Origin: Amia ocellicauda
Taxonomy: Eukaryota; Chordata; Actinopteri; Amiiformes; Amiidae
Direction: 5' to 3'
Length of the DNA: 64,000 nt
NCBI RefSeq assembly: GCF_036373705.1
Contig: NC_089863.1
Location: forward strand, 10,055,857 to 10,119,856
This document shows, in pieces, positions 40,142 to 42,087 of this stretch (within the stretch, counting starts at the first letter, position 1; each line of letters starts with the position of its first letter). The translations under genes were made by a program, and so were the position numbers. The notes under the pieces are model-generated. The model was not told the DNA's origin and made no database searches. It worked only from the letters and a program-made list of their open reading frames with translations.

Positions 40142-42087
40142 CTACAGGGGGAACACCAGGAAGCCTGAGAAGGTGGAGTATTTCCAGCCGCCAAGCAGGT
40201 GGCCCCTCTCCAGCTTGAGGTAGGCCTTGTCACCCGTCTCCATTGTGATCAGCCCGGCGTTGGTGGCTGCCTCCCGGGTCACATCCTGGTCACCTGCGAA
40301 CGCAGAGATCACCGGCCAGCCGTTCAGCACCAGACTGACCTGAGAGAGTGGGAGAGACAGGCAGGTAGAGGGTGAGAAGAAGAGTTAATTGAATATCATT
40401 ATGTTTGCTCTGTACACAGTGTATCAGTGTGTGTGTCTGACCTGTATGCTCAATGTGTGTGTGTGTCTAACCTGTGTGCTCAGTGTGTGAGTGTGTGTGT
40501 CTGACCTGTATGCTCAGTGTGTGTGAGTGTGTGTCTGACCTGTATGCTCAGTGTGCGTCTGACCTGTATGCTCAGTGTGTGTGTGTCTAACCTGTATGCT
40601 CAGTGTGTGTGAGTGTGTGTCTAACTTGTATGCTCAGTGTGTGTCTGACCTGTATGCTCAGTGTGTGTGATTGTGTATCTGACCTGTATGCTCAGTGTGA
40701 GTGTGTGTCTGACCTGTATGCTCAGTGTGTGAATGTGTGTCTTACCTGTTTGCTCAGCGTGTGAGTGTGTGTCTGACCTGTATTCTTAGTTTGTGTGTGA
40801 GTGTCTGACCTGTATGCTCAGTGTGTGTCTGGCCTGTATGCTCAGTGTGTGTGAGTGTGTGTCTGACCTGTATGCTCAGTGTGTGTGAGTGTGTGTCTGA
40901 CCTGTATGCTCAGTGTGCGTCTGACCTGTATGCTCAGTGTGTGTGAGTGTGTGTCTGACCTGTATGCTCAGTGTGTGTGTGTCTAACCTGTATGCTCAGT
41001 GTGTGTGAGTGTGTGTCTAACTTGTATGCTCAGTGTGTGTCTGGCCTGTATGCTCAGTGTGTGTGATTGTGTATCTGACCTGTATGCTCAGTGTGAGTGT
41101 GTGTCTGACCTGTATGCTCAGTGTGTGAATGTGTGTCTTACCTGTTTGCTCAGCGTGTGAGTGTGTGTCTGACCTGTATTCTTAGTTTGTGTGTGAGTGT
41201 CTGACCTGTATGCTCAGTGTGTGTCTGGCCTGTATGCTCAGTGTGTGTGAGTGTGTGTCTGACCTGTATGCTCAGTGTGTGTGAGTGTGTGTCTGACCTG
41301 TATGCTCAGTGTGCGTTTGACCTGTATGCTCAGTGTGTGTGAGTGTGTGTCTGACCTGTATGCTCAGTGTGTGTGTGTCTAACCTGTATGCTCAGTGTGT
41401 GTGAGTGTGTGTCTAACTTGTATGCTCAGTGTGTGTCTGGCCTGTATGCTCAGTGTGTGTGAGTGTGTGTCTGACCTGTTTGATCAGCGTGTGAGTGTGT
41501 GTCTAACCTGTATGCTCAGTGTATGAGTGTGTGTCTGACCTGTATGCTCAGTGTTTGTGTGTGTGTGTCTGACCTGTATGGTCTGCCTGTTGTACACTTT
41601 GACCACATGGAAGTTGAAGCTGTAGACACCCCTCCTTGGAGCGATGAATATGCTGCGTGACAGGTCAAAGTGCCCCCCCACATTCACCAGCAGCTGAAAC
41701 AGAGGGTGGGGGGATTAATACAGAAACTGACTAATTGATTTGACACTACAGTACAGTACAGACAGCCAGACACACAGACAGACAGACACACAAGGAGGCA
41801 GAGAGGTAGACAGACAGCTTGGTCACCTGGTCAAAGTAGACGGTCAGGGTGCGGTTGCTCATGTCTGATGGCTCATGGTTGGTGTTGCGCGTGGCGGCGA
41901 AGGCGACCCGTCCTGCCCCCGAGCGCACGGCCATGCCCAGCACCCCCGCCCCCGCCCCCCCCGTGGGCGCCGAGTCGCACACCACCAGGCAGCGACCCTC
42001 CAGCACGATGGGCTCCGTCTCGTTCTGACACTCCCCCTTCCGCAGGACCCCCAGCACGGCCAGCAGCGCTGCCAGCACACGCACCAT
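40142..42087 (-). CDS. cbln3: Cerebellin (C1q-domain secreted synaptic organiser), CBLN3 position
   Basis: Three exons, 42087-41827, 41693-41574 and 40339-40142, give 192 residues, close to the usual 193-205 of cerebellins. A signal peptide (about 1-20) is followed by [18 protein letters not shown], with the Cys33/Cys37 pair used for oligomer assembly. The C1q domain follows: [45 protein letters not shown] and [14 protein letters not shown] at the very end. Cerebellins are secreted hexamers that bridge neurexins and GluD receptors at synapses. The sequence looks nearer to CBLN1 than to mammalian CBLN3, but the position beside KHNYN and ADCY4 is that of CBLN3. The symbol therefore rests on synteny. 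Confidence 0.85.
40425..41573 (-). repeat. Minisatellite of splice-donor-like units in cerebellin intron 2
   Basis: The unit is about 30-40 bp and in gene sense reads AGCATACAGGTCAGACACAC then a variable CACTCACACACTG. More than 25 copies run from the exon-2 donor across almost the entire intron. A higher-order repeat of about 396 bp is visible from the variant TATTCTTAGTTTGTGTG at 40781 and again at 41177. The exon ends ACCATACAG|GTCAGACAC, so each unit repeats the exon-intron junction. Confidence 0.95.

Follow-up and report, generated by a model that had tools for sequence, protein, structure and literature searches.

Minisatellite units containing an exon end and its splice donor fill most of an intron of a cerebellin-type gene in Amia ocellicauda

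Intron 2 of a cerebellin-type gene of Amia ocellicauda consists largely of a minisatellite whose units resemble the very junction at which the intron begins. This array of about 1.15 kb takes up most of the 1234-nt intron together with the last 7 bases of exon 2 and contains 38 junctions, namely the true splice donor and 37 further "decoys" downstream of it. We consider it probable that an old donor was caught in a duplication across the exon boundary that later expanded, that mostly the first donor is used while the decoys are tolerated, and that the array is a neutral by-product of these events. Unless a contig is named, coordinates refer to the window, i.e., the whole stretch of 64,000 nucleotides that we analyzed (contig NC_089863.1, positions 10,055,857 to 10,119,856).

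The gene lies on the minus strand and comprises coding exon 1 from the ATG (41827..42087), intron 1 (41694-41826), coding exon 2 of 120 nt (41574..41693), intron 2 (41573-40340), and coding exon 3 with the stop codon (40142..40339), which is entered through the acceptor ...CTCTCTCAG|GTCAGTCTG. Exon 2 terminates in ACCATACAG, with ACC ATA CAG (Thr-Ile-Gln) as its last codons, and intron 2 opens with GTCAGACACAC; the true donor is CAG|GTCAGA (41568..41576, minus strand, first intron base 41573). The gene product of 192 residues matches Cerebellin-1 structures in the PDB (5h48_A, E 3.1e-90). Its neighbors in the window, according to a Pfam scan of 30 of the 284 listed reading frames with 75 aa or more, include an adenylyl cyclase, an N4BP1-type KH/NYN protein, and a protein kinase as well as a Tc1-like transposase, a PRY-SPRY exon, and a RING/B-box exon. 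Human 14q12 presumably carries ADCY4, RIPK3, KHNYN, and CBLN3, so that cbln3 is a possible identity for the gene instead of cbln1. GTCAG opens both intron 2 (41573) and exon 3 (40339) and is preceded by CAG each time, so that the mRNA junction recreates a donor-like CAG|GTCAGT.

Tandem Repeats Finder (TRF) together with a parse of the array using a degenerate core placed the minisatellite at 40427..41580 on the minus strand, with units of 24-34 bp, a core of AGCATACAG|GTCAGACACAC, and TRF periods that include 34, 120, and 396. It directly adjoins the real exon-intron boundary: the first unit begins at the donor, and the TRF span puts the exon-side edge of the array 7 bases within exon 2. The parsed junctions run from the true donor at 41573 down to 40441; a preliminary description of this DNA had rightly noted many units but, with its figure of more than 25, undercounted the 37 that follow the true donor. 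At these 37 extra junctions, 22 have the same 9-mer as the true donor, CAGGTCAGA, while the others show CAGGTTAGA (5), CAGGCCAGA (4), CAAGTTAGA (3), CAGGTAAGA (2), or CAGGTCAAA (1), which means that GT is present in 33 of 37 and GC in the four with CAGGCCAGA. Superimposed on the units is a higher-order structure of two blocks of 13 units and 396 bp each (units 4-16 at 41046..41441 and units 17-29 at 40650..41045, minus strand), followed by a partial third one. The two complete blocks differ by a single mismatch in 396 bases, and this near-identity suggests that the array expanded recently. When only one block and its flanks are counted, GT has changed to GC in 2 of 21 units and position +3 is other than C in 5 of 21, and this small sample of 21 units gives no sign that decoy donors are being purged.

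The units contain exon sequence along with a splice site. A typical unit, AGCATACAG, shares with the exon end ACCATACAG an exact run of 7 bases (CATACAG) before the next base is mismatched. At the donor register, 13 of the 20 bases that end the exon are matched, whereas the 1076 other registers of the array average 6.0 and never exceed 12. A 7-base run has a probability of 6e-5 in random sequence of the exon's composition, of 0.003 once CAG is granted, and of 0.041 if the exon codons are drawn randomly among synonyms encoding the same protein; given the latter two values, the exon part taken alone is moderate evidence. When up to 2 mismatches were allowed, a search of the genome (988 Mb in 385 contigs; repeat counts are lower bounds) with the 20-mer AGCATACAGGTCAGACACAC returned 42 matches, comprising 38 in this array and 4 stray ones with 2 mismatches each. 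At this stringency, the array unit is thus not found at many unrelated places of the 988-Mb genome in the manner of a dispersed satellite or transposon-borne repeat. The preliminary description had held that the array was built across the boundary of exon 2 and its donor, and that each unit carries about seven exon bases and a near-identical donor. The first point is supported by the lead of the donor register over all 1076 others and by the array edge within the exon, the second, for most units, by the exact 7-base run and the 22 of 37 junctions with the true donor 9-mer. The observation that it had named as speaking against such an origin, i.e., the repeat at other places but lacking the exon bases, did not turn up in the animal's own genome at up to 2 mismatches.

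Paralogs of the gene help to place the intron and the array in time. Among 33 matches of a paralog search, the weaker of which we read as other C1q-type genes, three paralogs on C9, C2, and C4 have an intron at the identical codon, with exon ends and donors of ACGATCCAG|GTCAGAACAC, ACTATACAG|GTGAGCACAG, and ACCATTCAG|GTATGCTC, respectively. Intron 2 of the C9 paralog (3562 nt) contains no donor array, only a 2-copy 22-mer near its 3' end, and TRF found no array in intron 2 of the C4 paralog (923 nt) or in the first 300 nt of intron 2 of the C2 paralog. Judging from the shared position, intron 2 is older than the array, and we rejected the array as the origin of the intron since three paralogs have an intron at the same codon. 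The same presence in all three examined paralogs speaks against a new intron formed by tandem AG|GT duplication. The donor GTCAGA is probably older than the array as well: it is common to the C9 paralog, whose exon ends in ACG ATC CAG, and this points to an array that arose from the donor rather than the reverse. The array units have the ATA codon of the cerebellin gene itself, which also occurs in one of the three paralogs (C2).

The true donor scores 7.0 bits, and 29 of the 37 decoys score equal or higher (matrix and U1 end were entered by hand). Two decoys are clearly stronger at 11.1 bits: decoy 14 (41141, minus strand), which has CAG|GTAAGA and pairs with the U1 end at -11.0 compared to -6.9 kcal/mol for the true donor, and decoy 27 (40745, minus strand), its copy in block 2. 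Because these two outscore the true donor, sole use of the first donor is not guaranteed. The consequences of decoy use are predicted to be mostly disruptive, with a premature stop following from 36 of the 37. The decoy at +34 would shift the frame and lead to a stop in exon 3, and another 35 would run into a stop at extension codon 30. Only decoy 2 (CAG|GTTAGA, 41507, minus strand, +66 nt) is in frame and free of stops and would add 22 residues, so that several in-frame isoforms from repeat units are not predicted. Premature stops more than about 50 nt upstream of the last exon junction usually expose a transcript to decay, and by this 50-nt rule transcripts from the first few decoys would escape while those from about +156 onward would be subject to it. 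The earlier statement that decoy use adds repeat-encoded sequence or a stop agrees with these predictions, and the unit-by-unit scoring of donor strength that had been proposed as a check yielded many equal and two stronger decoy donors; it was the number of decoys, given as up to 25 instead of 37, that had been set too low.

Like arrays are found at other genes of the same genome. We scanned for three donor motifs in a row, which gave 209 matches for the mixed motif CAGGTNAG (arrays grouped from 100 listed, which extend as far as C5), 51 matches in 12 arrays for CAGGTCAG, and 81 matches in 30 arrays for CAGGTGAG (grouped by eye). The 5' flank was read for 44 arrays, i.e., these 12 and 30 plus 2 from the mixed list, with the array of the window included. 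Seven of the 44, including the one at the cerebellin gene, begin at the end of a same-strand coding exon with a protein match, and in six of these seven the exon match exceeds the control registers; for the other 37, a start at an exon was not established from the 5' flanks, and several of the 44 adjoin reading frames on the opposite strand. The clearest cases of the class are a MYND-finger exon and a transferrin exon. At the former (C3:91 kb; zf-MYND, 7e-11), 17 of 20 exon bases are matched (controls at most 15) and 11 donor-like sites follow downstream; the array of exon-plus-donor units makes up much of a short intron, with 17/20 recurring in alternate units. At the latter (C23:14.7 Mb; E 1.1e-9), the first unit repeats all of the last 20 exon bases with a junction of its own, CAG|CT, and three later units reach 19/20 at donor registers, the lone control register that attains 20 being this first unit itself. 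A DNAH1-like exon (C3:2.1 Mb; E 1.1e-23) has an exact run of 15 bases and 17/20 with controls at most 12, and a CHMP1B-like exon (C10:17.1 Mb; PDB E 2.5e-17, no Pfam family) has 17 and 14/20 with controls at most 8. As with several of the parallel cases, units and control registers are few here (only 16 registers for the DNAH1-like and 29 for the CHMP1B-like exon). A CYP2-like exon (C5:11.5 Mb; E 2.3e-7) exceeds its controls by a margin of one base (13/20, controls at most 12), and the exon part of the array at an EGF exon (C2:798 kb; EGF_2, 6e-5) is unproven because its 12/20 does not exceed the control maximum of 13.

Four further sense candidates were left out of this count of seven. The one at C9:14193181 has 13/20 with controls at most 10 and only a Pfam match below cut-off (PufX, E 0.068), the one at C29:22334475 has 12/20 with controls at 10 and neither a Pfam nor a PDB match, and those at C7:49303374 (13, controls 14; no Pfam match) and C18:17546475 (8, controls 10) do not rise above their controls. 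An array pair on C22 with an open frame of 45 residues matches no Pfam family, and irregular matches at C3:2005054 and C3:42746224 stand outside the count. At C4:765 kb, an array on the opposite strand seems to start at the acceptor of an exon without Pfam match, possibly an acceptor counterpart. Reversed motifs served as controls and gave 20,484 versus 209 matches for CAGGTNAG, 19,387 versus 51 for CAGGTCAG, and 147 versus 81 for CAGGTGAG, with the first two controls looking as if they were swamped by some satellite that carries the reversed motif. Arrays with donor motifs do not outnumber those with the mirror motif, and we claim no hot spot; the 7 of 44 are themselves uninformative in this respect because choosing by donor motif favors donor-born arrays. 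Of the 20 arrays grouped from the 100 listed mixed-motif matches, 13 are no farther than 2.1 Mb from a contig start (C2, C3, C4, and C5); in man, minisatellites are known to occur close to chromosome ends.

The window as a whole is rich in tandem repeats. Its 13 arrays with a period of at least 10 and a score of at least 150 cover 9,110 of the 64,000 bases, and CA- or TG-rich arrays are common among the TRF results. A tandem unit of 31-33 bp at 29082-29231 and 30449-31202 flanks a Tc1-like transposase frame (29587-30300, minus strand; HTH_Tnp_Tc3_2), and a CAGG tetranucleotide array at 49295-49647 extends over 353 bp with 88 copies and a 100% match. A 61-bp unit stands in tandem at 31819-33540 (plus strand) and, inverted, at 11091-12099, with a degenerate single copy near 34420. 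These 61-bp arrays had been proposed as a partner phenomenon in which acceptors, too, had become minisatellites, but this claim did not survive the genome search: a 30-base piece of the unit has 1324 + 1115 = 2,439 matches at up to 3 mismatches, with none for the reversed control. A unit shared by so many places can have its birthplace in at most one of them, and we therefore rejected the 61-bp arrays as products of each local acceptor. The 100 matches listed fall in five further places on C20, the contig of the window, at distances of 0.8 to 7.4 Mb, so that among them the unit is perhaps concentrated on one chromosome.

Minisatellites at exon boundaries are a known kind, of which the cerebellin array is another member. 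The so-called "mirages" of amphioxus are described as minisatellite-like duplications of intron/exon boundaries in Adh3, the globins BflGb6 and BflGb9, PGBD5, and troponin C (PMC3087553, PMC3902484). Mirages with AG/GT signals are reported not to disturb regular splicing, with globin RT-PCR and Adh3 data taken to suggest that splicing is normal (PMC3087553, PMC3902484). As at the cerebellin gene, their tandem units are reported to consist of exon bases and a splice site at a real exon edge, many of them with AG/GT, and the BflGb9 mirage likewise duplicates the 3' boundary of an exon 2. The reported number of units varies, with BflGb6 haplotypes of 6 and 3 units. Differences lie in the lancelet hosts and in reported unit lengths of 10-72 bp (Adh3) or 150-160 bp (globins), whereas the cerebellin array belongs to a vertebrate and has 24-34-bp units, 38 junctions, and nested 396-bp blocks; moreover, splicing across mirages was tested on RNA, while our array is read from DNA sequence alone.

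At 12 nt, the repeat unit of human IFI6 is shorter than those of the cerebellin array. The IFI6 minisatellite is reported to supply multiple splice donors, with two downstream units in use and three mRNAs as the result (PMC4526556). In both genes, repeat units after an exon form a bank of donors, but the cerebellin bank is one of predicted donors and only a single decoy keeps the frame, whereas downstream units are reported to be used at IFI6. The origin of new introns from tandemly duplicated AG|GT proto-splice sites (Rogers, as discussed in PMC3087553) involves the same copying of AG|GT, but the cerebellin intron existed beforehand and was merely expanded. The VNTR of ABCA7 that is said to affect splicing in man (PMC5954066) is intronic as well, although its title and abstract opening do not indicate that the units derive from a splice site. 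Among titles and abstract openings, in a literature that mostly leaves aside subscription journals, we recognized no other vertebrate boundary minisatellites. As far as these sources go, what is new is how many units there are, that they form nested blocks, and that such arrays recur in several genes of a single vertebrate genome.

Several other readings of the array have to be weighed against the account given at the outset. The decoys could be used as alternative donors in the manner of IFI6, yielding a minor isoform with 22 additional residues alongside many transcripts that are truncated or decay, and cerebellin output would thereby be tuned by the length of the array. The 29 of 37 decoys that equal or exceed the true donor on our hand-entered matrix, two of them by a wide margin, and the IFI6 precedent with its two employed downstream units (PMC4526556) lend this some appeal, but with an open frame from one decoy only and with lancelet AG/GT arrays reported to leave regular splicing undisturbed (PMC3087553), we regard it as unlikely. 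A CA-rich intronic minisatellite might also have come to lie beside the donor by coincidence, with the exon match made up of donor consensus and chance. Three of the seven matching bases are indeed consensus CAG, in line with the two conditional probabilities given above, and with 13 arrays over 9,110 of 64,000 bases it is no surprise that an array edge should fall close to a splice site somewhere. This coincidence is nevertheless very improbable in our eyes, given the 13 of 20 exon bases matched above every control register, the exact register in which the units adjoin the donor, and the parallels with matches of 17/20 (MYND, DNAH1-like, and CHMP1B-like) and 19-20/20 (transferrin).

Two further possibilities concern the sequence of the array as such, and we give little credence to either. 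CA-rich RNA is a target of hnRNP L, and intron 2 contains 310 CA dinucleotides and, over its 1234 nt, 60 starts of ACACACA; yet the array is hardly a selected splicing element of this type with donors as mere passengers, since the intron sequence examined in three paralogs does without such an array and CA- or TG-rich arrays are common in the window anyway. That the repeated 396-bp block is an artefact of assembly would fit its single difference in 396 bases, but the remaining array shows more divergence and runs without a break into the exons at both sides, and even minus one block 24 extra junctions (37 - 13) would still stand; we think such an artefact scarcely credible.

We thus favor expansion from an old donor, by the following course of events. 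Intron 2 would have been present for long with the ordinary donor CAG|GTCAGA when a short tandem duplication across exon end and donor copied at least 7 exon bases, the donor, and CA-rich intron sequence. Unequal exchange or slippage may then have raised the number of junctions to 38, with the duplication of the 396-bp block as the latest step. The spliceosome would mainly use the first, exon-bounded donor and the 37 decoys would be tolerated because the true exon retains its enhancers and its position nearest the upstream acceptor. Splicing is most likely normal, and the lancelet mirages, being reported without splicing disturbance, suggest that it continues regularly. The array would then be selectively neutral, a side effect of tandem duplication in a genome rich in minisatellites, and, incidentally, a bank of alternative donors that is presumably variable in length. 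No special mechanism needs to be invoked: with 2 x 10^5 donors and the array density of this single window (13 in 64 kb), chance would, on a rough estimate, place several hundred array edges no more than 20 bp from a donor.

Whether donor-derived minisatellites form a recurrent class in this genome seems to us evenly balanced; tandem duplication would then repeatedly catch exon ends with their donors and leave many genes with length-variable banks of intact decoys, which a rule of the spliceosome would ignore or which would give rise to allele-specific isoforms. An exon with its own donor and, within 1.2 kb, 22 identical and 2 stronger copies of it constitutes a natural experiment on donor choice among equals, a question otherwise addressed by engineered duplications. 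That similar arrays occur at several coding exons of a single vertebrate genome suggests that boundary minisatellites are not confined to lancelets, and such minisatellites offer a route to intron growth and to new alternative donors.
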